Shown: positions 6,000 through 58,830 of the stretch, piece after piece
Layout of the letters: each line of letters begins with the position of its first letter
Position numbering within the stretch: the first letter of the stretch is position 1
DNA from: Metridium senile
Lineage: Eukaryota > Cnidaria > Anthozoa > Actiniaria > Metridiidae
Reading direction: 5' to 3'
Length of the DNA: 64,000 nt
Assembly (NCBI GenBank): GCA_949775045.1
Contig: OX459105.1
Location: 9,192,547 to 9,256,546 of the forward strand
The notes under the pieces: generated by a model
Databases searched by the model: none
What the model saw: only the letters and a program-made list of their open reading frames with translations
What the model was told of the DNA's origin: nothing
Translations under genes and position numbers: made by a program

Positions 6000-8900
6000 G
6001 TTTATATCAGCTTTTTAACAACAAGAATATATTTACTCGGCATTATCGGAAAACATAGCTCCGTGATTTTGAACATTTGATATTTCCAAGTAGAAAACCG
6101 CTTTTAAAGACAATTAAACATCCAGAGAAGCCTTTCACAGCACGATATGATTACATATACTCAGACGACTTATAACCGGCGACAAAATAATATATATCAT
6201 TCAAAGAGTTCTCGAGGCTCTACTGTTCGCTCGATTTTGAATGAGAGTCTTGAAGAGAATGACCGAGAGATTACAGCGATAACAGTCAGAAATCTTGAAA
6301 AGTACGGTGGTTTTTTTTCACGCATAGTCATGTATTACACATCAAAATGTCCGTAAAAGAATGGTGTTGTCGAATCCATGGCTACTGTTTTGAAAGGGTT
6401 TGTTTAATTTTAAATATAGCCCATATTGTAACTTGACATGAGAATAGCCGCACAATCTCTCTAACTTGTAAAAGTGATCAAACCGTTAACTTTCAACCCC
6501 CAAAAGTACGTGTACTTTTTGAACGGGAAGTAGATCAAAATTATTTGAAAAGGTCAACAAAAGATTGAGGTAGCTGTATCCATGGCTACTTTTTTGACTT
6601 TTCTGCAAATATTTTGAGAAAAGATCGAAAAGCCACGATTTTGTGGCCTTTATTTCTACCATTTTGACTAGGCGCATTGAAGCGTGACGTATAGCGGGTT
6701 TATAGCTGACCAAATGTTAACACTTCTTTTCCGATGTTGGAAGCCATTTTGAAAAGTGAACACGGAGGAAGTTACTTTGTTTATGTAGATACCTTATTTA
6801 GGGAAATACCTTGTTAAGGAAGATACCTTGTTTGTATAGGAAGTTACTCTGTAGGAAGATATCTTGTTTTCCGGAAAACACGTTGTTTAGGGAAATACAT
6901 TGTTTTACCTTATATAGGAAGATACCATGTTTAGGAAGATATCTTGTGTAGGAAGAAACATTGTTTTCAGGAAAACACGGATGTACAAATAAAAGAACAA
7001 TAGAAAATGGGAATGAGATTAAAAACTTGAGCAAAACTGATGGGATTATTTAAGTTTTGACTGGGGTTCGGTCCAAATATAAACTGGGAAATGGTATTCG
7101 ACCCCCCCCCCCCCCCCCCTTTTCATGACCCTTTTGTTTTGGAAGATCGGCTTTGTTTAAGATGGTACTTTGTATGGATATTTTGACATAAATCGTGAAA
7201 TTTATCATCGTTTTTTTGAGAAAAGATCGTACATCTCACACAAAGTGTCCACTTTTTGCATTGTCGTTTAAGGACGAAGTAGAAAAAAATCGATTTTCTG
7301 TGTGAAAAAGTCATTTCTCCAAAAACTGAGCGAAAAAACTCCCCCTTATATATATTATCAAATATGAAATTGTCTTTCCCTTAATCACCAAGTGCACACA
7401 TACCACATTTATTATTATCTCATATCATCATTCAAATACGCAGAAGTCACAACAAGCTGGAAGAATATATTTATACAGGATTTAATATTTTGTTGTTGCC
7501 TTTTTTCTTTTACTGTTTCAAGTTGATACCCATATACCAATTTATTTGTACGTGTTCTTGTTAGTATATATTCATACCTTAATCTTATAATTTCAATTAC
7601 AAACGACGTGTTACTAGGTCCAGAAATATTTTTATTAACCCTTCCGGTTGTTTACTTCTGCAGCTCAGTGCTAGTTTTAATACTATTGTACATTTTATAA
7701 CATTCATTTGCAAGTAATAACATATCGCTTCTAAATAAATAATTTGAAACGTTCCGGTTCCAGCTTGTCAATTGTAAAGACATATGTTGGTTCTTATATT
7801 GTATCTACGTTAATTATATACCAACTGTTTTAGCCGCTTTTAATTACAAATAGCTAGGTAATTGCTTTATGCTTTATTATCGACATTGCAAATATAATTA
7901 GTTATATATATGTTAATACATTGTAGGAATATATCAAATTATGATTGTTAATATAATGTTGAAAAAAACTCACTAAAATGAACTGTAACTTTTACACTTT
8001 TTCGACAACAAGGTTAATCTAAATAGTTATACCGTTCCATGTACATAAGAAGTACATTTTATTGGTTTGAGTACAGAGGAAAATAATATTAAACAAATCT
8101 CACTGCCTGAAATGATATGCTTCAGGTTAAGCTCTAAGGCCTTGGAGTATGAAACACGTTTGTCATCTACCATAATGACAACAGTTTAACATCTTAGCCC
8201 CTGATGAGTTTACCATTACACTATATCGATCTATTCGTGTATTAGACCACATATGAGCTCATATCACAAATCACCTACAAACACACAAAATATATCCCTC
8301 TACCCTAACAATAGAGTCCGATTACCCTGTATTATTTAAACAATTAACTTTCACGTTTGTTCGACAATTATAAGAATAATTTAATTAGCTAGAATTACAT
8401 GTACATGAGGAGTACATTTATATTGGTTTGAGTACTGAAGAAAAGGCAATATTCTCTAGAGCCGTATATACATTTATTTGAAAAGAGGTTGACGGAGTAA
8501 ACTTGATTGGCGAACAGCGAATGGCGATTGTACGACCGAAACGAACTGTGGCTCTTTGAAATGATTATTTATGCTTCTGTTTTGGCAGAAAATGAATTCA
8601 TTGAACAATGCTTTCCCATTATTTTAGTGAAGAAGGAACTTAAATTGATCGCCGTATACTCCATTCTCTGTTCACCCCGTCAATCTTTTTAATTGGTATT
8701 TGTGTACTTGAGGCCAGCTAAAACCTCAGATTTATGTTTATGGTTATGGTTAATTGAAATAGCAATAATAAACGTTTGTACATCGCAAAAGTCTCATTTC
8801 TTGGTTTAAATGCTGAAAAAGACCCCATTTTTGTCAGTGAAAATCCACTTCGCGGAGTTAAAACCTCAGATTTTTACTTTATGCTTTTCCAACGATATCG

Positions 8901-9352: not shown

Positions 9353-10345
9353 CTATTGGCATTTCATAATACTTCGCAGTTCTTGCTGAAAGTCTGACTT
9401 GATCAGTGAATAAACAAAAAAGTTTGGTGCTGAGTTGATGTACCTTAACACAACCATGGCCAAATATGTCTTTGTGGCTTCAGTCTCCTTGCAGGGTTCG
9501 GACAAATAAAAACACGATAACCAGTAAAGTACGAATGAATTGCACACCAGAAATATGAGTACAACGAACCCAACTGATATAGTTCCATTGTACGATCTCC
9601 TCATACGATTTCTTTGCTCCTTTCGAGAGTTTGAATTGGAAGAAGACTCGGTGCTAGTTGCTGATGGCTCATGGCTTGTTAGTGCCCTTATCTGCTTACG
9701 GTGCTCTTTAGCAACAATGATGATCCTCACGTAGGCGAACAGCAAGAATGCGTTTGGCAGAAGTATGAAGACCAACAGGTAGAAAATCTGGTAGCCGAAG
9801 TACTGATCTTTATTTGCCTTACCCATCTTCAAAACGACGAAAGGGATTCGCTGCAGAACAGGCAGTGTCCATGCAAAAGAAATGACCAAGATGCATGTGC
9901 TTTCTTTGGAAAAGTTCGAGTGTTTGAACGGGTATATCACTGCAATGTATCTGTCGAGGGTCAGTGCGCAGATATTAGTAGTCGATGCGATAAGAAAGAC
10001 ATTCCAGAAGAACTCGAATATAGTCCAAACTGTTTGATCATATTTGAGGTAAAATTGGTGAAAGAAAATCGATGGTGTGTTGAAGATACCGACCAAAAAG
10101 TCTGCCACGGCGAGGGAGAGAATAAACCAGTATGGCGAAGGCTGTGAACGTAGTCGTCGTCTTGAAGATATGATATATATTACAAGGCCATTACCAAAAA
10201 CTGTTACAAAACCGAGAATTCCTCTCAGAACCCAGTACCATGTAGGTTTATCCCCAGAGCCAGCACTAGTCGTCGCATTTGAAGAAAAATTGGACACCAT
10301 TGATGTCCGAATGGAAGAGTAATTGAGAGCGTTAGCTAAGACCAT
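9353..10345 (-). CDS. class A (rhodopsin-like) G-protein-coupled receptor, intronless
   Basis: A 330-residue, single-exon seven-pass membrane receptor with a true ATG start. The N-terminus has three N-glycosylation sequons (N8, N19, N23). TM1 carries GN at 51-52, TM2 LSLAVADF at 76-83, TM3 ends in DRY at 131-133, TM4 has W159, TM5 P197, and TM7 NSAPNFFVY at 304-312. The third intracellular loop (213-250) is Ser-rich and then Arg-rich, the usual G-protein contact region. Oddities: counting back from DRY, position 3.25 is W107, not the usual cysteine, and the second extracellular loop has no cysteine. TM6 lacks CWxP. The TM7 proline is one residue before the asparagine instead of after it. Lack of the TM3-loop 2 disulfide is known in the melanocortin/cannabinoid/lysophospholipid cluster, but ligand and subfamily cannot be told from this. 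Intronless class A receptors of this size are common in cnidarians. No neighbouring gene suggests a pathway. Confidence 0.93.
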   Translation of the reverse strand: MVLANALNYSSIRTSMVSNFSSNATTSAGSGDKPTWYWVLRGILGFVTVFGNGLVIYIISSRRRLRSQPSPYWFILSLAVADFLVGIFNTPSIFFHQFYLKYDQTVWTIFEFFWNVFLIASTTNICALTLDRYIAVIYPFKHSNFSKESTCILVISFAWTLPVLQRIPFVVLKMGKANKDQYFGYQIFYLLVFILLPNAFLLFAYVRIIIVAKEHRKQIRALTSHEPSATSTESSSNSNSRKEQRNRMRRSYNGTISVGFVVLIFLVCNSFVLYWLSCFYLSEPCKETEATKTYLAMVVLRYINSAPNFFVYSLIKSDFQQELRSIMKCQ

Positions 10346-10399
10346 CTTGAAATGTTAACTGCGCTTGATGGTTGCGTCCTCAATAATGAATTACAACTA

Positions 10400-27680: not shown

Positions 27681-27989
27681 ATGGACGTTTTTATCGTGTT
27701 CGTTACCTTAGCCTGTTCACAAATGACTTCAGTTTACTGTCAAGCTTGTAAACCAGCCAGTGATTTTACGAGACATTATAACCAGGCTCTAAACGGTCAC
27801 GTGATCAAGACTATTACAGCCAATCGTATGGAGTGTTCATTGCAGTGTGAAGAGCTGATGGGATGTCGGTCTACTAACGTGTACAAAGACGAGACAGGAA
27901 AAGAAATGTGTGATTTGAGCAAATCATCGAAGTCAATGAGTCCCGACTCGATGGTATCGAGGGCTGGGTACGAATATTACGAACTAACG
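27681..27989 (+). CDS. lectin gene A, exon 1: signal peptide + PAN/apple domain
   Basis: 103 codons from the ATG at 27681 to a GTAAGC donor, ending in phase 0. Residues 1-20 form a hydrophobic signal peptide (VFIVFVTLAC core). Residues 23-103 carry C23, C52, C56, C62 and C77 in the CxxxCxxxxxCxSxN spacing of PAN_1 domains, which mediate protein or carbohydrate contacts. TTGCAG just before GTAATGG looks like an acceptor, so a noncoding upstream exon is likely. The product should enter the secretory pathway. Unit B keeps only the last 35 nt of this exon. The ATG is the only one that leaves a full signal peptide. Confidence 0.8.
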
Positions 27990-28602: not shown

Positions 28603-28810
28603 TCAAGAAATGGCTGCAGTACAGAAAAGTGTCTTGGTGTTGTTGACTGGAAGGTATTCAATTCGTCTCAATTTCGGTTATTCAACGACCGAGTGACCTA
28701 GGGCGAGGCTCGAACCAGATGTCGCGATCATGGAGGAGACCTGGTATCGATTCACAGCCAACAAGAGATGGACTTCATCTCAACAGAGCTTCTACCAAGC
28801 GCACCAAAAG
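28603..28810 (+). pseudogene. lectin gene A, exon 2: C-type lectin N-half with in-frame TAG
   Basis: 208 nt after TTTTCAG, phase 0 in, phase 1 out, donor GTATGT. It encodes CLGVVDWKVFNSSQFRLFND, then (after the stop) GEARTRC...GGDLV.IHS-type sequence of a C-type lectin domain. The codon at 28699 is TAG where gene B has TGG (the conserved W of ATWGEA). Confidence 0.8.
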
Positions 28811-31635: not shown

Positions 31636-31961
31636 GTAAGATTTATCAACAATTATTCACCGAAGTTCTAGGTACATGTTAAACATTTTCCGAAGTTCTC
31701 AAACAAATTATCGCACAAAATGTTTAGTAATCACATGCATATTTATACTATAAAATATTTTAATTTATACAATAGCTGCCAATATGATAAGGATAGATAC
31801 ATACATATGAGGACGAGCACGAGCACGAGCACGAGCACGAAGACAAGGATCATAACGAGGGTGGGGACGAGGATGCAGTTATGTGTTCACATTATTGTGA
31901 TGTGTTGGCATTGTACTGTGCTGAAGTTTTTACAATGTGCTGATGTTTTTTTATTGTGTTG

Positions 31962-32764
31962 ATGTGTTTACATTGTGATGATGTGTCCACATTGTGATGA
32001 TGTGTTCACATTGTGGTGATGTGCTTACGTTGTGGTGATATGTCCACATTGTGATAATGTGTTCACATTGTAGTGATGTGTTCGCATTGTGGTAATGTGT
32101 TCACATTGTTGTGATGTGTTCACATTGTGGTAATGTGTTCACATCGTAGTGATGTGTTCACATTGTGGTGATGTGTTCACATTGTGGTGATGTGTTCGCA
32201 TTGTGGTGATGTGTTCACATCGTAGTGATGTGTTCACATTGTAGTGATGTGTTCACATTGTGGTGATGTGTTCACATTGTTGTGATGTGTTCACATTGTG
32301 GTAATGTGTTCACATCGTAGTGATGTGTTCACATTGTGGTGATGTGTTCACATTGTGGTGATGTGTTCACATTGTGATGATGTGTTCGCATTGTGGTGTT
32401 GTGTTCACATCGTAGTGATGTGTTCACATTGTAGTGATGTGTTCACATTGTGGTGATGTGTTCACATTGTAGTGATGTGTTCACATTGTGGTGATGTGTT
32501 CGCATTGTGGTGATGTGTTCACATCGTAGTGATGTGTTCACATTGTGGTGATGTGTTCGCATTGTGGTGTTGTGTTCACACTGTGGTGTTGTGTTCGCAT
32601 TGTGGTGATGTGTTCACATTGTAGTGATGTGTTCGCATTGTGGTGTTGTGTTCACATTGTGGTGATGTGTTCACATTGTTGTGTTGTGTTCACATACATT
32701 ATGGTGATGTGTTCACATTGTTGTGATGTGTTCACATTGTGGTGATGTGTTCACATTGTGGTGA
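31962..32764. repeat. 19-bp minisatellite in lectin gene A intron
   Basis: About 40 units of GATGTGTTCACATTGTGGT and close variants (TAGT, TTCGC), preceded by a short GAGCAC array (31812-31840). The same satellite, inverted, occupies the equivalent intron of unit C (58268-58830). Confidence 0.95.
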
Positions 32765-32849: not shown

Positions 32850-33091
32850 GACGACAGGACAAACGAAAAGCAGTTTGGACCGGCTTGAATGATCTTACCC
32901 AAGAAAACATGTTCACTTTCAGTGATGGATCATCAATGTCCTATCAGAACTGGAACGGCGGTGGCCCAAGAGATACTTACAAGTTCTCTGACTGTGTGTT
33001 CTTTCCATTGGAAAAAAAGTCCAATTACAAATGGAAAGATGGCCCTTGTGGTCTGGAGCTTCCATACATTTGCAGAAGAAAAATTAATTGA
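32850..33091 (+). CDS. lectin gene A, exon 6: C-type lectin C-half
   Basis: 242 nt after TTTTCAG, phase 1 in, ending in [11 protein letters not shown], the FTFSDGS and NWNGG strands, [19 protein letters not shown]: the WIGL-equivalent, the two C-terminal cysteines and the final strand of the lectin fold are present. The sugar-specificity triplet is neither EPN nor QPD (GPRD instead), so classical Ca-dependent mannose or galactose binding is doubtful. Confidence 0.88.
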
Positions 33092-33661: not shown

Positions 33662-35478
33662 CAAGGGCACCAGGACAAACAACACAGTTCGATATTGTAG
33701 ATATTTTCTAAGTTATATAGATCAAATATACGTTATTGCTCTTCACTTATCTGGTATCCTGCGTATATCTTGAGTTCCCTTGGCGATTTATACGGTGTTT
33801 TCCTCCAATTGGAAAGGTCAAAAGTGATCGATGTATTTATGTATCTTGTACGTTAGTTTAAAAACCAGTAACGGTCGTACCTGGCGCTTTGAGTACGGAT
33901 AGAGACTGCATACAGCTAATGCGACCGCGCGATATCAGTTACGTCATTAATTACAAACCAGCTTGTCAATCACAAGAGTTTTACCTTCGGTTCACTAAAA
34001 TAACCCGGGGTAAGCAACTCTGCTGCTTTCTATTGTCCTCTCGTCTGCTGGTTTAATCCAATTATTATGACAAGTGGGGTGGGCATTTGTTTACACAGCG
34101 ATGACAGATGCGGCTGTACGAACCAATGGCCAGCGAGGGTCAGCCTGGGCGCGGGGGTAATACGACCTTCATTGGTCCCCGCTCGGAACCGAACGTTAGC
34201 GAAATACGATCGAGGTAATTTGAAACAGCTTATTTGGACACGCGTATGTGACCTTGACACAGCCCGTTTATAAACATGTGTTTAACTGCCACAAGTCATA
34301 TCCTGAAGTATGTGAATCTATTACGACCAAAATCACCCAAAACAAACACCCGATACTTGTACTGTAAATCAAAATTGCAACAAAACAATAAACTATAAAA
34401 CCATGTTCAGTTAAAATCACGATTCATTGCATACATACATGTCATTCATCAGCTGCCTACCAAACAGCAGGTCAGCACTCGGTTACCTTGAGTTCCCTTG
34501 GCGATTTATACGGTGTTTTCCTCCAATTGGAAAGGTCAAAAGCGATGTATTTATGTATCTTGTATCTTGCTAATAACAGATTAGTGCGATTGATTTTGGC
34601 GGGTCATGCTATTGCGCGATCTGGACGAGTATAAATCGCCAAGGGAACTCAAGGTAACCGAGTGCTGACCTGCTGTTTGGTAGGCAGCTGATGAATGACA
34701 TGTATGTATGCAATGAATCGTGATTTTAACTGAACATGGTTTTATAGTTTATTGTTTTGTTGCAATTTTGATTTACAGTACAAGTATCGGGTGTTTGTTT
34801 TGGGTGATTTTGGTCGTAATAGATTCACATACTTCAGGATATGACTTGTGGCAGTTAAACACATGTTTATAAACGGGCTGTGTCAAGGTCACATACGCGT
34901 GTCCAAATAAGCTGTTTCAAATTACCTCGATCGTATTTCGCTAACGTTCGGTTCCGAGCGGGGACCAATGAAGGTCGTATTACCCCCGCGCCCAGGCTGA
35001 CCCTCGCTGGCCATTGGTTCGTACAGCCGCATCTGTCATCGCTGTGTAAACAAATGCCCACCCCACTTGTCATAATAATTGGATTAAACCAGCAGACGAG
35101 AGGACAATAGAAAGCAGCAGAGTTGCTTACCCCGGGTTATTTTAGTGAACCGAAGGTAAAACTCTTGTGATTGACAAGCTGGTTTGTAATTAATGACGTA
35201 ACTGATATCGCGCGGTCGCATTAGCTGTATGCAGTCTCTATCCGTACTCAAAGCGCCAGGTACGACCGTTACTGGTTTTTAAACTAACGTACAAGATACA
35301 TAAATACATCGATCACTTTTGACCTTTCCAATTGGAGGAAAACACCGTATAAATCGCCAAGGGAACTCAAGATATACGCAGGATACCAGATAAGTGAAGA
35401 GCAATAACGTATATTTGATCTATATAACTTAGAAAATATCTACAATATCGAACTGTGTTGTTTGTCCTGGTGCCCTTG
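33662..35478. mobile_element. 1.8 kb foldback element: two ~850-bp inverted arms, 117-bp loop
   Basis: Left arm 33662-34511 and right arm 34629-35478 are inverse copies (paired coordinates sum to 69140 wherever checked). Termini are CAAGGGCACCAGGACAAAC. The motif CTTGAGTTCCCTTGGCG lies near both the outer and inner parts of each arm. The loop 34512-34628 repeats part of the arm (GGTGTTTTCCTCCAATTGG), so a smaller inverted element may be nested in the centre. No transposase. Mirror-image frames of 68 and 76 codons in both arms are by-products. Confidence 0.85.
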
Positions 35479-42524: not shown

Positions 42525-42559
42525 TATCGAGGGCTGGGTACCAGTATTACGAACTGACG
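42525..42559 (+). pseudogene. lectin gene B, remnant of PAN exon
   Basis: Only the last 35 nt of the PAN exon remain (SRAGYQYYELT, donor GTAAGC). No acceptor, signal peptide or PAN cysteines. The left edge is a deletion breakpoint shared with the end of the upstream block. Confidence 0.8.
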
Positions 42560-45500
42560 GTAAGCAAGTCACACAACACAAGCTGTAGATAAGCATTATA
42601 TCAAAGTACGCGATATATCTTCCCAACATGTACAATTATTTATGCATAAATATGTTCATTCGATTTCATGTTTGAGTGACTCAATTTAAAAAGAAAATCG
42701 TAAAATGTTAAGTAATGTTCTTTAAATTCAAATCCAAAAACGGTAGATTGTAGTATGAAGTCTGACTAAACACAGATCTAGATGTAGCTGAACAAACATC
42801 TCATCCGACTGCAACTGGAAGGAGTTTCGTGAGTTTTTTTAGGAATTCGGTATGGCATGCACTACCAATTTTAATCTCTTAACTACAAATTTGATTTGTT
42901 TAGGATTTTCCGAGCATTTTGATATATGGTGTACTGAGATTTATTGTGAGATTTATTGTGAAATTTGAAGTCGCAGTGATCGTTCGTTTGTTGATATATA
43001 TTAGCTCTATCTGCATATAGGCAGATTTTGAGCAGTCCATAGGACAATTTATTTTTTTTTCGGTCCGGTATCCTTGTAATTCGCGTGCTGTGATTAATTA
43101 GCTAGCGCGCGGTACGTTTTTTCACGATCTGCCCGGTCCACGGTATCCTGTTGGAAACATTTCTTCCCGGCGATATTAATTTTTGAAAAATTTGGAAATC
43201 TTCTTTAATAGGTGATTGTTAATTATTGTAATTTATCGAACAAAATAGCAGGAGATCTAGAATTCTGAATTGACCAAAACACTGACAGAATAACCGACTG
43301 AGAGAAACTTAAAAGCTACGTGGCGAGCATTGGTTGTTTTTGCAAAAGATGAGATAATCAAATCAATATTGCAAAAACTCACGAGAGAATACACGAGAAT
43401 ACACAAAAGGTTGTGAGAATACATAAAAGTGTTTTTTTTTTTAATTTTCTAAATAATATAAAGCTTGTTCACATACCTTAATGGTACAACCTCAATAATA
43501 GTTGAAAAATATACTTGTAGTTTTTATCTTTGGTTGTAAACAACACTCCGGTGAATTGAACTATCTTTCAATGAGATATGTTGTTGCTTTTTAGTCACTT
43601 TTAAAATGCTATCTACAAAGTTTCAACGTTTTTGAAGTGTTCTTGTCTTTCTTTTAATTTTTTTGCATACAAAAGGTTAAACAATCTTGAAAATGGTCGA
43701 TTTACTTGATTCAAAGTCCTGTCAGTGATCCTAGTGCTTTCATCTTTCATCTTCTTCATAAAATACGACATAGACAAACTAATTCCTTCATCAGCTGACG
43801 GTGACTTGGATTAAATTTATTTTTTCTTATTATTTATCGAAAAAAAAGCTTTTTATGCCTTTTTCTTGATGCAAACGTCCACAAGACCAACGAATTACAA
43901 CTCGTTTCAACATCTATCGTGGTTCACTTGATCGTGTCAACTAAAATCCTTTGTAAAACATGTTTTTTGTTTCTTGACTTTATTGATGAATGATGATACA
44001 TATTTTGATGATATTTATTCATGAACATTTAAAAAAATATATTTTTGTTTTTATTAATCACACAAATTGTATTAACATTGTATTTACTGGTGCCAGATTG
44101 GAAAAAGTGTTATACTTTATTTGTTACCCAATATAAAGTTTATTATTATTATGAATGATGAAGAAAGCTGAAGTGATTTTAATATTTTGGCATTAAAATT
44201 TCAGTAAGTTTGTTGAGGCAGCCGTCAAATGCTGAATGAAAACCGGTTTCTGACAACCCGCTCTTTTTCAGTAAAACTACTGGGAAGCCATTTGAGAGAG
44301 AATAATAAAAAAATAATAATAAATAAGTTATTTACCTGCTAGAGGTCGGTCCGTATAGTGAAAAACTGCACTCGGTCTTGGAAAACGGACCTCGGCGGCG
44401 GGACCTCGGTCCGTACATCCAAGACTTCGGGCATTCCAGTATATAGTACAGTTATGAAGAGCATTTCATTTTGTTGTTTTCAGTCAAGATATGGCTGTAG
44501 CACAGAAAAGTGTCTTGGTGTTGTTGACTGGAAGGTATTCAATTCGTCTCAATTTCGGTTATTCAACGACCGAGCGACCTGGGGCGAGGCTAGAACCAGA
44601 TGTCGTGGTCATGGAGGAGACCTGGTATCGGTTCACAGCCAGCAAGAGATGGACTTCATCTCAACAGAGCTTCTACCAAGCGCACCAAGAGGTATGTCCA
44701 TAGTGAATAGAGTTTTGACTTAAGGTAGTTCGGGACCCAGCCGTAATCACATAATTTCGTTTTTTAGCTTTTATAATGTACCGATTTGAACATCATGGGA
44801 ACGTTATGCATTCACAAGACAAGCACATCATCTCTGCAAAAAATCTCCTGAATTTAGACCCGCATTCACGAAAAATCAAGATTTTTCGTTAAATTCATGA
44901 TTTTTTCGCGTTGAAATCCGCGTCGTTTTAGTGTCGATTTTTGGAACTATAATGCGTCACATAAATTAGTGTTTTGGGCAAGAATTACAAATTAAACTGG
45001 CCATAATTAGCTTTACATCGATTCTAGAGATACTAGCGGACCAAAAAATGTTAAAGTTTGTTTCGATTATCTTATAGGGAACTAGTTACCAGTCCCGCAC
45101 GGACAAAAAACAGGTTCACGAAATATACATTTTAAAGGGTTTTCGTGCTATAACTCGGAAAAGAGCGCGGTGTCACCCCATTTTTATTTTATAGATGGAT
45201 TTCCCTTATCAGAACTCTTCATTCCGTGAAATAAAAATGATATGGTTTTCGAGCGCAAAATGTGGTATTTTTCACATTTTGAGTTTATTTTTGCATCAAA
45301 ATTCTCGACATGCACGTACTTTTCGCAGTATTTTTTTTTGCCCAAAGGATTTTCTTGAGTAAAACATGGCAAATAATATGTTTGTTAGGTGTCTTTCTTT
45401 TGCAAATGCTTGTTAAAAAGTTTGTTATCGGGAAAAATAGAATAAATAGCGTTTAATGTTTCATATTCCGACAATTTTTGTCACAAAAAATGACCAAAAT

Positions 45501-48500
45501 GGGCCCCAGTCTACCGCCCTTATCTCCGAAACGAGCAAGGTGACCCATTATTTTAATTTTATTTTTGAACTTAACTTAGTTTGCTCTTTTTACATGAGAA
45601 GTTTCAAAAAGACCTAACGATAGAATCTACGACGCCCGAACTACCTTAACTTCATATGTACGTCTTCGACTCGCCATTGTATGAAGTACATATATATTCC
45701 TTTTTACAGTTCTTGTGGCTCAACCTCAACCTAATCTCTTTTGCATCCAGAATTCTCGTCGTTTGTCTGCGAAACAGAGACAGAAAGCTTGTTCTAGAGC
45801 CCTTGCACGATTATATATGATAGTTTCTTATTGGCTCTTGACTCTTGCTAATTCTTACACAAACTCCTTGACATTCGTTGACAAAAATAGTAGTCTCTAT
45901 AATAAATATGTTTTATTTTTAGGGAACTCTACAGAGACGATGTTGATGATGTTCTTGAGATTAGATGGCAAAGCAGACGCATCATTAAGGTAAATATAAA
46001 AAATAAAATAAAATTTGTATTACCGTTAAAAATTAAACAGTAAAGATGAAAACAAATAATGGCCAAACAATCTTTTATTATTAATATGAAAAATTAACAT
46101 GATATTGTTTAAAATGCTGTTAATGAAGATGGTGATACGATAACGATGATGATGATGTAGCCTGCGTAAAGGCTCTAGGGGGAGGGAGAGGGGAAATAAG
46201 GAATAGGGGGAAAAGGGGGAAAAGGGGGAAAAGGGGGAAAAGGGGGAAAAGGGGGAAAAGGGGGAAAAGGGGGAAAAGGGGGAAAAGGGGGAAAAGGGGG
46301 AATGTGTTTTACATTCGGAAATTATATCATACGATCGTGCGATTATTGTTCGGTTATAATATTATCAAGAATAAAATTCAAATCGACAAGGTTTTTTCTC
46401 GGACGTTTCGACGCCATCGGACGTCTTTTTCATGAGTGAATATTTATTGCAAATCAAAGTAAAAAATAAGTACAAATTGGAATAACCTAAGTTAAATTGA
46501 CCTCCTCGGATTTGTAAGCTATTGTTTAAAATAGTTTTGATAGAATAGAGTCAGATTGAGTGTTTACTGATGGTTTCAGGTCCTTGATAAACAGTATTTG
46601 ATGCACCAGGCATTCTAACTTGCTTTTGAAGCGTTTCAAGACGCTAAAATTGTTTTTAAAGTCTCTGATGTGCTGGTGACAGTTCTTGTAATGTTCGCCT
46701 ACTGCGCTAGATTTGTGCTCATTTATCCTTTGAAAAAGGTGTTGGCACGTACGTGCATGTACCCCAAATAACACACTTCACTCAAGTCACACTTCACTCA
46801 AGTCACACAAATAATAGACAACGTTTTGTTGGTTGATCATGGGTTGTTTCTTTCCTTTGAAGCCAAAAGAGAAGTCATGTTTACGGCTGGTGAAAACAGG
46901 TTCGATTCGTAAAATAGAGAAAGTTTTTCTTCGTCTTGCTTCAGTTCTCGGTAAAGTCGTTCGTCAAGCATTCTTTTGCTTAAACTCTCCTGTTATTCTT
47001 CTTGAAACCTAACATGCACGCAGCTCAAACGGTCACTCAGAGCTTCCAGAGTTCCACAAATTCAAGTCAGAGTTTCGACTTCAGAAGCAAAATAGGCAGA
47101 ATTTTATCGACTTGCAAGATAGACAAAGTGAATCATGAACACACGGCTTTGAGCAAAGCAGCGTTTCAGTGAAGTTGAAGAGTTTTTGCTCACGATTTCA
47201 GCTAGATTTTAGACTTTTCTATTGTAGGTGAACTCTGAAATCCACTTTTAAATCCATGTAAACTTGATCATCGTTTGTTGTGGTCTTTATAGTTGACATT
47301 TTGTGAAGAATAAAGTCGATCTTTTTAATTTCATCGCAATAAAATTATTTTTGACAAGTTTGAAACAGCGTTTCAGTGAGGTTGAAGAGCTTTTGCTCAC
47401 GATTTCAGCTAGATTTTAGACTTTTCTAATGTAGGTGAACTCTGAAATCCACTTTTAAATCCATGTAGATCATCGTTTGTTGTGGTCTTTCTAGTTGACA
47501 TTTTGTGAAGAATAAAGTCGATTTTTTTCATCGCAATAAAATTATTTTTGACAAGTTTGAAACTTGCCTTGGTACGTCTAGGAATGTATGACGCATTTTG
47601 ATTGGTCGATTGCTTCATTTGACGACGTTAGGATAATTTGTTGTGTGATCAAGCGCATTAAATGCAATTTACTTTTATATCTTCGTTATTATCTGTTGTT
47701 GTTATTTTATAAAAGCATTAGAAGATATTTTCCGTGTTTCTATTCTCTGTTAGAAACACTTGGGATTGTTGGGAGAACACTCGAAAAGATTTTAAATCAC
47801 TCGCTTTCACCTCGTGATTCAAAATCGTTCTCGTGTTCTCCCAACAATATCGCGTGTTTCTAACAGAGAATAGAAACACGGAAAATATCTTCTAATGCTT
47901 AAATACTTCATGTCTTTCAATATAAATAATTCAGACATTTTTTGAGAAGCTAGGGGCAGTAGTGCTAAAAAGAGAGCAGAATTGGCGGTCAAGTCGCTGT
48001 TGGAACGAAGAGATGTCCTCCTTTGGCTGTATTGCCTACTTGCTCTGGCAAAAGTCTCATTTCCATGTGTTAATTTGTTGGGAAGCCATGGGAATATTAC
48101 TTGAACGTTATGTGTCCGTCTTGATTGTTTGTCCCCTTACAGCTTGTTGGGATTAAGCACGACCCGTTACTAGAAGAGCATTGGGGATATAAGTTGTTGC
48201 TCACTGTTGTAAATATATTGGGTTACCTGTGTATATGATTAGACTAGTTATGATTTCATCAATAGTGCATGTAATTAACCATTAATTAGAGTATGTAATT
48301 AGCTGGAAGTGTAAAATAAATCTTCAGCCTTGGAAATCCGAACTTGTCCTAAATTTGTTGTGATTGAGCCAAGGGAGCACGGCAGACTGTTGTTTGTGGT
48401 TTGGATATATTCGATCTTTTGAAGGTTTTAAGTTACAACGATCTTTTCAACGTTTTAAATTACATCAACAGCTAAATTGGTAGATTAATGGGACTATCCG

Positions 48501-51500
48501 CCAGCAAGGGAAAAATGCGGGCGCGCCTGCCTCTGCGAGCGAGTCCCGAAGGGACGAGGGGGGAGTGAAGCGGTGGAATGATCAGCCAATCACGAATCGA
48601 GAATAGACGTTTTTGGGGGTGTGTCTCCTCCTGATGCTCGTAGCAGTTTCCTTGGGAACGGAAAAGAAAGCGGAAACGATTAATGTATGAAATACAAGCC
48701 TTGACCTTCTTGTTGATCTCTTCGCTGATAACCCAAATGTTTACGTTCGGATTTTTAATAGAATTTCGAGTTGTTATGGTCATATTGTAAGCTCAAAATC
48801 AATAAAATAATATGAACTTCAAGCAGCAGTACTCCAAAAATAGGAGGAAAATGTCTAGTTTAATTAGTTTAATAATTCTGATATCATGCGAGTAAATATA
48901 ACTGTGAGTAACAGTATACGTCTTCATGAAATGGAGCGCAACACGATGCAACCTTGAAGATTTTCCCTGCAGCCACGGACGTAATTCAGCTTAATAACTT
49001 TACAAGGATACTAATACAGATCTTTTTTGCCATGCGACCTTCTCTTCTTCTTTACACATTATTATAAGGACATGAATGTAAGGAACCACAAAAAATCAGT
49101 TGTAATCCCGGGTTTTAATAATATATATTCAAATTTGAAAATCGTTGAATATTCAAATAATTTAAGTTTGTTATGTAAATCTTGTTCATGTAAATCTTGT
49201 TCATGTAAATGCGTCTTTCCCTGTTCGACCTGTTCTTCGTATCTGGTTTTACGATTTCGATATTTCTCAATTTACAAAATTTTCCCAGCAACGGAAATGT
49301 TCCTAGCAACGTGCTACGAGCATCATACTACAGAATTTCAACGGTTTCATTCCCCCTCGCCCCTACGGGGCTCGCGGGGAGTTACAACTCTCGGGTGACA
49401 CTCGTACATTACTCGTCCCTACGGGACTCGCTCGGCAATGATAGTTGTGCCCGCATTTTTACTGGTCAGTCGATTGACGAAATAAGCCGTTTATGTAATT
49501 TAAAACTTTGAAAAGATGGTTGTAATTTAAAACCTCCAAAAGAACGAATATATCCAAACTACAAACAACAGTCTGCCGTGCTCCCTTGATTGAGCACGAC
49601 CAGTTACTAGATCTTTGATCTTTATCAGCGCAGAAGAACTAGCTACAAATTCCTTCATTTAGAGAAACGTTGAAGAATAGAACTCTAATTTATACAAGAG
49701 TTTAAAGATCTTTAGAGCTGTATGTGGTAGATGAATCTCACACCATCGAAACCATTGAACTATTGTACAAGATTGAACCGTATTAACTTGAATAGTAAAC
49801 TATATTCAGTAGCAAAGACTGCAATACACGTTTGTGTGTTTCAAATTGCGATTCATAACAATACTAGTTTTACAAATGTCAAACTGTGTCTGGCAGTTCT
49901 TACACGTGAGTTTGACACTCTATTGTAAACACTGGTTAATTATATGTATACTAATTAGGGGGCGTATTAGAAAAAAAACAAAGTCGGCATTGTAGACTAT
50001 CCCTTCCTTACTCCTCTCCCCTCCCCCCCCCCCCCCCCCCCCCTTCTCCTCTCCCTTAAGGGCCACTACGAAGTTTATGTTGATGTGGATGCGGATGCGG
50101 ATGATGATGATAATGATGATGATGATGATCGTGATAGTGATGATGATAATGATGATCGATGATGATCATGATGATATTGATGATCACGATTAATGATAAT
50201 AATATTGATGAATATTGTTCTAAATACAAAGGATATATCACATACAATTTGGGCTCAGCTTAGTAACAAAGAACTCGGAAAGGGACTATGGTCAAATAAA
50301 CCAGTTGATTGCTTGATCTATGTATAGACTAATTGTTAATTACATCAGACTCGATAGCGTGTATTATATTCTTTACATTTGACTACATCTCACGCTAGCT
50401 AGTTTAAGGAATGTGCAAATTAGCGAACACATTCTATGTACGGACTGTAGTCAAATTCTAAAGAATATATTACACGACGCTATTCGAAGAATAAGAGAAG
50501 CTTGAAAAGGTATATTCTTCTCAGTCTTAAAGGAACCGCCTCATACAAAACGGTAGACGGTTACAAAGCCCTGTACCTCGACGGTAACAGCCAAAACTAT
50601 GCCACCACGCCTCCCATAAACTTACAACAGCGGGGTTTCTCCATTGGCGCCTGGGTCAAGCTCTTAACTCCTGCTTCAGAAGGTTTAGTGTATGGTGATT
50701 GGTCTTCGCCTTACCAGTTCGCTTTGAAGATTGGCAAAGACGGAAAAGTCCACTTTAAGCTAATGTTTGCATCTTCGAATACTACAAATTTATCTTCCAC
50801 CAGGTAAGAGACTGGTGATTTAATATATGCAATATATAGTATACATGTATTTCAAGAAAGGTTGGTGAAGGTGATGTTGTTTGTTGCATATCAGACTCAA
50901 ATTGCACTATGGATGTTATGAATTCAAGCAGCCAAAGTTCACGATAATATGGAACTTTTACTATTTATAAACTTTGTCTGCATATTTTATTCTGTGAGCT
51001 GATACTATTTACATAAGAATATACCATATTTCAAGCTTATAGTAAGCATCATGCAAAATTAAATACAATATGCAACAAAACCCTTGTCAACCTTTCTTGA
51101 AATAGTTGTATTTTGAGTACAAAGGATCGTGCACAATAATGGTGCAAGTTACGTATTATTTTAGAACATTTTAAACCATCTACAACTATACATCAATATA
51201 TCAATGTAAACGGTTTTTAAAAGCATTGCATTACATAACCGGATGTTTCGGACCAGTCGTCCCCTTGTATACACATTAAGATGATTGACTAACTAACTTT
51301 TTCTTAGAAAAGTATCTCATGCAAAGTTTTATGATGATTCAGTTTGAATAAAAAAAAATGGGGTGTCCCAAACTCATTTCTGAGATATTGGACATTGAAT
51401 AGTACTCACTTTGGAAGTTTTTAAACGAAAAATGGCAAAAACTTTGCTTGGGACCAAAATAATTCCCAACATAAAAACTGAAAACAAGCTGTTGACGTTT

Positions 51501-53177
51501 TCAGAACATCTTACTTGAAGGATTGTATACGAATTATTAACAAGTAATTAGTAAGGTGAAACAACACGTAATATGTATGAGCATAAAGCTAAAAATCGAG
51601 CATTAAAATTAACAAGCAGTTTATATTAGCAATAGTTGTAGAAATGCCAACTTTCTTAAATTTGACAAAACAACGATTTTTACCTGTTCTTCCTGAATAT
51701 CAAAAACAAATCCAGGTTCCCGGGCAAATTTTTGAGATTTACAGAAAACACGAACCTAAAATCAGCTTGTTCAACCATCTTGGCTACTCTGCCATTCATG
51801 AAAACTGGAAAATTGCAACGTTATTTCTGATTGGACTTATTTTATCCTATCCAAAGAGCTGTTGTTTTGAACTTACGCCATCTTGTCACGCAACACTACT
51901 CGAAATATTTTTTTTGAAAATATATACGTCCCATAAAAGAGGTTTATGGACTATTTCTCAATGGCAATCCACTTTTCTTTATATAGAAGCTGTATTAAAC
52001 GTCTATGTATCATTTCTATGTATCAAAAGCTCCACCCCCAGTCGCAGAAACAATCAAAATCAAACCGAACTTCCAAACTTGCTAGTCGCGATGCAACGAT
52101 TTCGGCTGTGAAGAAAAGATTATAGAAGTTTAAAGTCATCTTTTTTCTAATAGTGCAGTCATTACCAACGTCTGGACGCATGTGATGGCCTCGTGGGGAT
52201 ATGGTGACAAAAATGCAAACGTTTTTATCAACGGCATCAAAGAAGCAGACCAATATTTCGATTTCTCAAACGCAGACCTTAAGACGACCAATCATGACTA
52301 TGACATAGGACTTGACAGAAATGCAAGTAGTGTACTCCACGCTTATATAAGAGAACTGACTGTTTTCAATTGGCACATAAGAAGCGATAATAGACTCTTC
52401 AAAAGAATGGGTAAGATTATCCAACAATTACTGGGGATGAGGATGAGGATGAGGATGAGGATGAGGATGAGGATGAGGATGAGGATGAGGATGAGGATGA
52501 GGATGAGGATGAGGATGAGGATGAGGATGAGGATGAGGATGAGGATGAGGATGAGGATGAGGATGAGGATGAGGATGAGGATGAGGATGAGGATGAGGAT
52601 GAGGATGAGGATGAGGATGAGGATGAGGATGAGGATGAGGATGAGGATGAGGATGAGGATGAGGATGAGGATGAGGATGAGGATGAGGATGAGGATGAGG
52701 ATGAGGATGAGGATGAGAATGAGGATGAGGATGAGGATGAGGATGAGGATGAGGATGAGGATGAGGATATGCATCACAATGTGGTTACGTACACGTATGG
52801 ATTTCGGTGATGTGATCGAAAATAACCAACTGTATTGAGTAACATTGGTCTTTATTGTATATATCAACGTTTTAAAGCAGGTCAATATATTACACGTAAA
52901 AAAACAATTTATTTTCAATGCAGGGCGATGGGACAAACGAGATGCAGTGTGGACCGGCTTGAATGATCTTACCCAAGAAAACACGTTCACTTTCAGTGAT
53001 GGGTCAGCAATGTCATATCATTACTGGAGCGACGGTTACCCAAAAGATATGTACCAGTTCTCTGACTGTGTGATATTTCCATTGGAAACAGGCTCCAATT
53101 ATAAATGGAGAGATGACTCATGTGGTTTAGAACTGCCATATATTTGCAGAAGAAAATTCAATTATAATTCAGTATGA
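42525..53177 (+). CDS. lectin gene B: C-type lectin with inserted laminin-G domain, 5' end lost
   Basis: Exons 44484-44691, 45923-45989, 50525-50803, 52154-52410 and 52924-53177 are all open and phase-compatible (0-1, 1-2, 2-2, 2-1, 1-stop). They encode the N-half of a C-type lectin domain, a complete laminin-G/ConA-like domain, and the lectin C-half. The three laminin-G exons together enter and leave in phase 1, the same phase as the lectin intron, so the cassette is symmetric. The signal peptide and PAN exon are deleted, so secretion needs another first exon (the 78-nt exon-like segment at 40840 is one candidate) or the copy is non-functional. The coding core is less damaged than in A. Confidence 0.75.
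42600..44450. other. intron of lectin gene B, repeat-derived
   Basis: No gene seen. 44320-44440 contains GAGGTCGGTCCGTATAGTGA and GACCTCGGTCCGTAC, a palindromic sequence of the kind widespread in anthozoan genomes. 43050-43150 has GC-rich patches. About 42720-42990 matches the intron of A near 28150-28345. Confidence 0.4.
44484..44691 (+). CDS. lectin gene B, exon: C-type lectin N-half
   Basis: 208 nt after GTTTTCAG, donor GTATGT, phase 0 to 1. CLGVVDWKVFNSSQFRLFND, ATWGEARTRC, GGDLVSVHSQQEMDFIS: the first two helices and conserved W of a C-type lectin domain. Open throughout, unlike A. Confidence 0.87.
44724..45645. mobile_element. TTAA-flanked element, GGTAGTTCGGG ends
   Basis: TTAA | GGTAGTTCGGG ... 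CCCGAACTACC | TTAA, 922 bp, no transposase. The target site is that of piggyBac-type transposons. A solo related end is at 4145. It lies 30 bp after the lectin N-half exon of B. Confidence 0.85.
45923..45989 (+). CDS. lectin gene B, exon: start of laminin-G domain
   Basis: 67 nt, acceptor TTTTTAG, donor GTAAAT, phase 1 to 2. It encodes TMLMMFLRLDGKADASL. Length differs from A by exactly one codon, keeping phase. Confidence 0.72.
46205..46302. repeat. GGGGGAAAA 9-bp tandem repeat
   Basis: About 11 perfect units in a lectin gene B intron. Confidence 0.95.
46380..46774 (-). mobile_element. Penelope-like element 3' fragment (GIY-YIG tail)
   Basis: The minus frame (46526-46774) reads HLFQRINEHK, NFSVLKRFKSKLECLVHQIL, LFIKDLKPSVNTQSDSILSK then LF: the C-terminal part of the GIY-YIG endonuclease domain of Penelope-like elements. 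The N-terminal GIY and YIG motifs and the reverse transcriptase are absent. Past the stop comes ATGAAAAAGACGTCCGATGG then CGTCGAAACGTC, discussed as a possible ribozyme remnant. Confidence 0.7.
47160..47575. repeat. ~205-bp tandem duplication
   Basis: GCGTTTCAGTGARGTTGAAG starts both copies (47160 and about 47368). Each ends in TTTTTGACAAGTTTGAAAC. The copies differ by small deletions. Confidence 0.85.
47713..47900. mobile_element. 188-bp MITE with ~85-bp inverted arms
   Basis: AAGCATTAGAAGATATTTTC at the left is the inverse of GAAAATATCTTCTAATGCTT at the right. The match continues through GTGTTTCTATTCTCTGTTAG and TTGTTGGGAGAACAC. Confidence 0.85.
48369..49586. mobile_element. hAT-like non-autonomous element, 8-bp target duplication
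   Basis: Flanked on both sides by TGATTGAG (48361-48368 and 49587-49594). Ends AGGGAGCACGGCAGACTGTT and AACAGTCTGCCGTGCTCCCT, with ~150-bp inverted subterminal similarity (GTTTGGATATATTCG, AATGCGGGC). An 8-bp duplication fits hAT transposons. No transposase frame. Confidence 0.75.
49600..50500. other. lectin gene B intron, low-complexity patches
   Basis: A poly-C tract (about 50024-50043) and a GAT-rich patch (50085-50200). Nothing coding seen. Confidence 0.5.
50525..50803 (+). CDS. lectin gene B, exon: laminin-G core
   Basis: 279 nt, acceptor TTCTCAG, donor GTAAGA, phase 2 to 2. YKALYLDGNSQNYATTP, RGFSIGAWVKLLTP, SSPYQFALKIGKDGKVHFKL. Same length as in A with few substitutions. Confidence 0.87.
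50804..52153. other. lectin gene B intron
   Basis: The stretch 51000-51210 (CAAGCTTATAGTAAGCATCA, CTTTCTTGAAATAGTTG) is present inverted at about 59510-60490 in unit C. A 155-codon ATG frame (51644-52111) has no recognisable domain and is probably chance. Confidence 0.5.
52154..52410 (+). CDS. lectin gene B, exon: laminin-G C-terminal part
   Basis: 257 nt, acceptor TTCTAATAG, donor GTAAGA, phase 2 to 1. NVWTHVMASWGYGDK, NVFINGIKEADQYFDFSN, YDIGLDRNASSVLHAYIREL. Immediately followed in the intron by the GATGAG array. Confidence 0.88.
52435..52769. repeat. (GATGAG)n hexanucleotide array
   Basis: About 55 units, almost perfect (one GAGAAT variant near 52715), beginning 25 bp after the exon. 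The Met-Arg and Ile-Leu frames are artefacts. Confidence 0.97.
52924..53177 (+). CDS. lectin gene B, exon: C-type lectin C-half
   Basis: 254 nt, acceptor AATGCAG, phase 1 in, stop [60 protein letters not shown]. The calcium-site triplet is not EPN or QPD. The protein ends five residues later than A. AATAAA-like signals occur near 53573. Confidence 0.88.
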
Positions 53178-57743: not shown

Positions 57744-57985
57744 TCAATTGAATTTTCTTCTGCAAATGTAAGGCAATTCTAGACCACATGAGGCATCTCT
57801 CCATTTATATTTGGAGCCTGTTTCCAATGGAAATATCACACAGTCAGAGAACTGGTACATATCTTTTGGGTAACCTTCGCTCCAGTTATGATACGACATT
57901 GCTGACCCATCACTGAAAGTGAACGTGTTTTCTTTGGTAAGATCATTTAAGCCGGTCCACACTGCATCTCGTTTGTCCAATCGTC
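57744..57985 (-). pseudogene. lectin unit C, C-type lectin C-half exon
   Basis: 242 nt, same phase and acceptor (TTCAG) as A and B. Open: [59 protein letters not shown]. The exon itself looks intact. It is called a pseudogene because the rest of the gene is missing upstream. Confidence 0.7.
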
Positions 57986-58287: not shown

Positions 58288-58830
58288 ACACAATGTGAAC
58301 ACATCAACACAATGCGAACACAACACCACAATGTGAACACAACACCACAATGTGAACACATCACCACAATGTGAACACATCACCACAATGTGAACACATC
58401 ACCACAATGTGAACACATCACCACAATGTGAACACATCACCACAATGTGAACACATCACCACAAGGTGACCATATCACCACTATGTGAGCACATCACAAC
58501 AATGTGAACACATCACCACAATTGTAACACATCACCACAATGTGAACACATCACCACAATGTGAACACATCACAACAATGTGAACACATCACCACAATGT
58601 TAACACATCACCACAATGTTAACACATGACCACAATGTTAACACAACACCACAATGTGAGCACATCACCACAATGTGAACACATCACAACAATGTAACCA
58701 CATCACAACAATGTGACCACATCACCACAATGTGAGCACAACACCACAATGTTAACACATCACCACAATGCGAACACATCACCACGATGTGAACAATTCA
58801 TCACAATGTGACAAACTACCACAAAGTAGC
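58268..58830. repeat. 19-bp minisatellite, unit C
   Basis: CACCACAATGTGAACACAT units, the inverse of 31962-32764, in the equivalent intron. A short ATCCTC array (about 58888-58947), the inverse of the GATGAG array in B, follows before the laminin-G exon. Confidence 0.95.

Follow-up and report, generated by a model that had tools for sequence, protein, structure and literature searches.

A probable exon-shuffled LamG domain inside the C-type lectin domain of a sea-anemone PAN-CTLD gene family

The 64,000 nucleotides of Metridium senile DNA analysed here (the window; contig OX459105.1, our C11:9192547-9256546) hold several copies of a gene in which a laminin-G-like (LamG) domain, carried on three exons, lies between the two halves of a C-type lectin domain (CTLD). 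The best reading, and a well supported one, is a domain within a domain: in all likelihood an exon-shuffled LamG resides inside the CTLD of a sea-anemone family of PAN-CTLD proteins, and the exon cassette is most likely included as a rule. An earlier note on this DNA had proposed either such a nested architecture or a splice switch that includes and skips the cassette. The former is supported by one-chain proteins of two anemone genera, by abutting gene models of a third, by most of the M. senile loci examined, and by sequence and model evidence that the lectin halves make up one CTLD across the insert; the latter found no support.

A LamG cassette between two lectin half-exons

In the copy at 44484..53177 (copy B, plus strand), a CTLD N-half exon (44484-44691; 208 nt, phase 0 to 1) covering Lectin_C profile positions 3-34 is followed by LamG exons L1 (45923-45989; 67 nt, phase 1 to 2), L2 (50525-50803; 279 nt, phase 2 to 2; matching Laminin_G_3) and L3 (52154-52410; 257 nt, phase 2 to 1), and then by a C-half exon (52924-53177; 254 nt, phase 1 to stop) covering Lectin_C positions 37-106. 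GT-AG ends are present at all of them. The five exons and their phases are as the earlier note placed them; its figure of about 190 inserted residues fell short, the cassette measuring 603 nt, or 201 residues. The join gives 354 open codons, in which Pfam finds Lectin_C (PF00059) as two stretches (E 9.9e-16, 58.9 bits; cut-off 22.6) with Laminin_G_3 (PF13385; 51.4 bits, E 1.7e-13; curated cut-off 27.6) between them; the CTLD thus passes its cut-off but is not contiguous in sequence. Removing the cassette leaves, as had been predicted, a contiguous in-frame lectin with Lectin_C in a single stretch (E 2.4e-18, 67.3 bits). The frame is also kept on omitting L2 alone or L1 with L3, and the other four combinations shift it.

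The same order is found in other sea anemones. A protein search with the 354-residue copy B join (785 candidates, E<=0.001) brought out two annotated proteins, one of Actinostola (P0001; 452 aa, 58% identity, 99% coverage) and one of Actinia tenebrosa (P0002; 456 aa, 46% identity, 98% coverage). Both run PAN, CTLD N-half, LamG, CTLD C-half in one chain, their domain joints fall on the same residues as those of the window copies, and both pass the cut-offs for Laminin_G_3 (50.2 and 45.7 bits) and for PAN_1 (31.1 and 24.4 bits against 21.4). In Exaiptasia the order is spread over two abutting models, one with the N-half, L1 and L2 (P0014) and one with L3 and the C-half (P0012). A three-sequence profile retrieved 5 proteins among 3625 candidates, adding to those of Actinostola and Actinia one bacterial LamG and two fish CTLD proteins.

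Within M. senile (a 389-Mb assembly of 169 contigs), 93 of the 450 candidates from a genome search with P0001 were scored and 23 stretches taken, two of them truncated at 10,000 bases. Twelve LamG-exon loci were examined, which is no census since the rest of the 93 matches were left out: copies A, B and C, copy D at C11:13.73 Mb, S27, S28 and S29, all on C11, and K1-K5 on C16. N-half, LamG exons and C-half stand in order at 10 of the 12, on two contigs, K4 and K5 being cut by the stretch taken. With splice sites chosen by score, blind to phase, and a spurious C-half match of copy C (E 0.03, position 7804) left out of the counts, acceptors fell in phase 1 for L1 (9/9), phase 2 for L2 (11/11) and L3 (12/12) and phase 1 for the C-half (11/11), and donors in phase 1 for the N-half (10/11), phase 2 for L1 (8/9) and L2 (5/11) and phase 1 for L3 (11/12). 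All ten PAN exons end in phase 0, and the N-half acceptor is in phase 0 in copies A-D. Chance does not account for the arrangement, since its order, joints and phases are found again in further anemone genera and in diverged copies within this genome.

Fold, lectin features and origin of the insertion

Four core cysteines and a WIGL-like strand are the hallmarks of a CTLD. In copy B, P0001 and P0002 a column check found C40, C319, C337 and C345 invariant, together with W280, G282 and L283. The nearest known domains are mannose-receptor-type CTLDs such as Endo180 (MRC2) and CD23: both halves match one solved CTLD, including its cysteines, its WIGL-like strand and its order of elements. What sets the anemone domain apart from these is that 212 residues, the LamG, occupy the place of 2 in Endo180, and that the usual calcium- and sugar-site residues are mostly replaced. 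Classic calcium-dependent sugar-binding CTLDs carry EPN or QPD, and WND; read by eye, neither is present in B, A, P0001, P0002 or P0012, where the EPN site reads GYPKD, GGPRD, GDPNN, DEPDD and GCPND, respectively, and the WND site is W-x-D with x other than N. Because these residues are mostly replaced, it is doubtful that the protein binds sugar through the usual CTLD site.

An AlphaFold2 model of P0001 (15 alignment rows) served for fold comparison only; its LamG matches chains of PTX3 and neurexin. The anemone LamG shares with such pentraxin-like, concanavalin-fold domains (PTX3, neurexin LNS) both this model match and a Laminin_G_3 score above cut-off; unlike them, it sits within another domain and not beside it. 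The model alignment (A5) omitted P0003-P0007, P0018-P0020 and P0024, and an earlier run on P0001 with two rows (mean predicted local distance difference test score, pLDDT, 35.2) was discarded. Together with the solved lectin, the low-confidence model suggests that the halves form one fold across the insert. If so, the lectin halves would together make up a single CTLD with the LamG projecting from it, and the first and last CTLD cysteines would probably bond across the insert. These are PAN-CTLD proteins, probably secreted, whose LamG/pentraxin-like domain is spread over three exons and whose role may lie in extracellular recognition or adhesion.

How the LamG may have arrived is indicated by five uninterrupted paralogues in the same genome, three with an upstream PAN exon at C11:8.39-8.55 Mb and two at C8:6.54 Mb. 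Like the nested copies, these PAN-CTLD and CTLD genes have their CTLD cut by an intron at the insertion point, the N-half ending and the C-half starting in phase 1; they differ in that no LamG match was found between the halves in any of the five. This bare phase-1 intron is how the insertion site would look before the event, and exon shuffling into it therefore explains the origin: a LamG unit with phase-1 ends would have entered a PAN-CTLD gene through its phase-1 intron, at a point of the CTLD that falls after helix 2 and before the WIGL strand. CTLDs without an intron there also occur on C7. In a tree of 23 CTLDs, which omits K4 and K5 (N-half and C-half, respectively, not in the stretch), P25 (a near copy of P24) and two of the three C7 loci, the 13 split CTLDs fall on one side of a single branch; a single insertion event is compatible with this tree, at low branch support.

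In the parts consulted of a survey of cnidarian CTLDs, concanavalin-A-like and PAN domains co-occur with CTLDs in one protein, and Actinia tenebrosa and Exaiptasia have the most C-type lectins (PMC8260672). The nested copies combine the same domains; the survey, in those parts, counts domains and makes no mention of nesting (PMC8260672). Our searches of open PubMed Central texts brought up no description of a LamG inside a CTLD, which is not proof that none has been published. In evolution it is harder to place a whole domain within another than to line domains up, and here one genome holds both the state before such a step (the bare phase-1 intron, in five CTLD genes) and the state after it (several diverged copies), which allows a domain insertion by exon shuffling to be studied alongside its empty site. 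Since profile scans show Lectin_C in two pieces around the LamG, such proteins could be misread in domain censuses of the immune receptors of cnidarians. The family also offers a concrete target for the structure of a nested lectin.

Weighing the explanations

If the cassette were alternatively included, the same gene would yield the nested protein and also a plain PAN-CTLD lectin, and one locus would thus present two recognition surfaces, with a LamG that can gate the lectin face. We consider such a splice switch very unlikely. In its favour, the frame stays open without all three LamG exons in both A and B, and Lectin_C scores the skipped form higher than the full one (67.3 against 58.9 bits). 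In-frame skipping, however, follows from insertion into a phase-1 intron, and all three exons would have to be skipped together. A profile of the skipped PAN-CTLD form, searched against 2827 candidates with length limits of 0.55-1.75 times the query, wide enough to admit a skipped protein of about 250 residues, matched 19 proteins at E<=0.01 (14 of them judged by sequence and the rest by name), the two Exaiptasia models included, and no contiguous form of a nested gene was among them. The name of the A. tenebrosa record bears no isoform label. The LamG is, moreover, about as strictly conserved as the CTLD, as expected for a regular part of the protein: omega is 0.43 between A and B (LamG 0.41, CTLD 0.46; p 4e-5), 0.30 between B and C (p 3e-3) and 0.42 between C and D (PAN 0.40, CTLD 0.41, LamG 0.43; p 1.8e-7). 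Neither A nor B makes a good test case for splicing, A having a stop and B being without most of its first coding exon. That intact copies such as C make plain and nested forms according to tissue or challenge is likewise improbable, and inclusion of the cassette is most likely the rule.

The lectin halves and LamG exons might instead belong to different transcripts and be neighbours by chance, for which Exaiptasia, with two models and not one, gives some ground. Those models, however, break within the LamG, between L2 and L3, so that LamG sequence is attached to a lectin half in both of them; the Actinostola and Actinia proteins are single chains, the order recurs at 10 of the 12 loci examined, and no tested combination stays in frame once the N-half is skipped or dropped. 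Separate genes are, on this evidence, scarcely credible. It is very unlikely, too, that the exons at these coordinates are a relic in decaying duplicates with no protein product. Decay is suggested by the in-frame TGA of A and by the signal/PAN exon of B, most of which is gone, but it would be true at most of A and B as sequenced, for C is open throughout and the family is retained in other genera. The A-B and B-C omega values mean fewer amino-acid than silent changes, over a span that includes the time before any damage.

Several observations weigh against the reading of a nested, regularly included LamG. The branch that unites the split CTLDs is poorly supported (72/16; recovered in 73% of 200 bootstrap trees), and omega between A and C is 0.55 over the two exons compared (p 0.03) and 0.80 for L3 alone. 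The one-chain relatives are annotated proteins only. On its own the N-half matches Endo180 weakly (0.032), and the P0001 model is weak (mean pLDDT 48.7), its alignment having included ordinary CTLDs. Top-scored donors do not always follow the phase pattern (exceptions: N-half, 1 of 11; L1, 1 of 9; L2, 6 of 11; L3, 1 of 12), in most cases where the match stops short of the exon end (K1 has a visible phase-2 donor at L1). Against a PAN exon that ends in phase 0, the N-half acceptor is in phase 1 in the seven copies other than A-D that have an N-half. Finally, S27 and S28 (L027, L028; C11:12.08-12.14 Mb) depart from the core cysteine and WIGL pattern and have a shortened C-half, in which VWVG is followed by a jump to the last cysteines; their CTLD may therefore be decaying.

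State of the copies and neighbouring sequence

Compared with itself, the window shows a large tandem duplication in which the segment at about 16.4-33.4 kb pairs with that at 38.9-53.5 kb. The earlier note had ascribed to copy A the same arrangement as to copy B, and all five of these exons were indeed located on the plus strand: N-half 28603-28810, L1 30559-30628, L2 30841-31119, L3 31379-31635 and the C-half with its stop at 32850-33091. What it overlooked is an in-frame TGA codon of the N-half, standing in place of a conserved Trp that B, P0001 and P0002 share, and an upstream exon (27681-27989, plus strand) that ends in phase 0, begins like a signal peptide and matches PAN_1 (PF00024; E 1.6e-6, 28.3 bits, above the cut-off of 21.4). 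The hydrophobic start of this exon points to a signal peptide. With the Actinostola relative as query, no other PAN match was found in the window at E<=1, and copy B is without PAN_1; its signal/PAN exon is reduced to roughly 34 nt at the 3' end plus the donor (42526-42559, plus strand), the rest being missing. Copies A and B thus look damaged, and because of the TGA in one and the loss of most of the signal/PAN exon in the other, neither as sequenced encodes a whole protein from the exons found. Splicing exon 1 of A to the exons of B would keep the frame open, but nothing supports it, and an in-frame bypass of the TGA fails, since none of the four combinations tried keeps the reading frame once the N-half is skipped.

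Copy C is inverted. Its L3 (58980-59236, minus strand, read 59236-58980) and its C-half with stop (57744-57985, minus strand, read 57985-57744) lie in the window and its signal/PAN, N-half, L1 and L2 exons past the window end (C11:9261955-9265795, minus strand); the six join to 453 open codons. All six exons are open in copy D as well (L023, C11:13725800-13734000); no in-frame ATG was found in the portion of its signal/PAN exon that was read, and this copy may use an alternative first exon.

Between L3 and the C-half, the intron contains a tandem array in all three window copies (31881-32764 in A, 52435-52768 in B and 58289-58811 in C), with a 19-bp unit common to A and C and a different hexamer, GGATGA, in B. 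The N-half exons of A and B (28603-28810 and 44484-44691) are closer to each other (silent divergence, dS, 0.12) than are their other exons (0.15-0.40), a similarity that may reflect gene conversion.

Just 3' of copy A lies a 1.8-kb near-perfect palindrome (33662-35478; 96% to its own reverse complement) with 9-bp tandem arrays on both flanks. Elsewhere in the window, a retroelement fragment at 13581-14090 matches zf-RVT, the reverse-transcriptase-associated zinc-binding domain (E 3.5e-8), and a 333-codon open frame on the minus strand (9356-10354) resembles rhodopsin-type G-protein-coupled receptors (7tm_1, E 5e-30).
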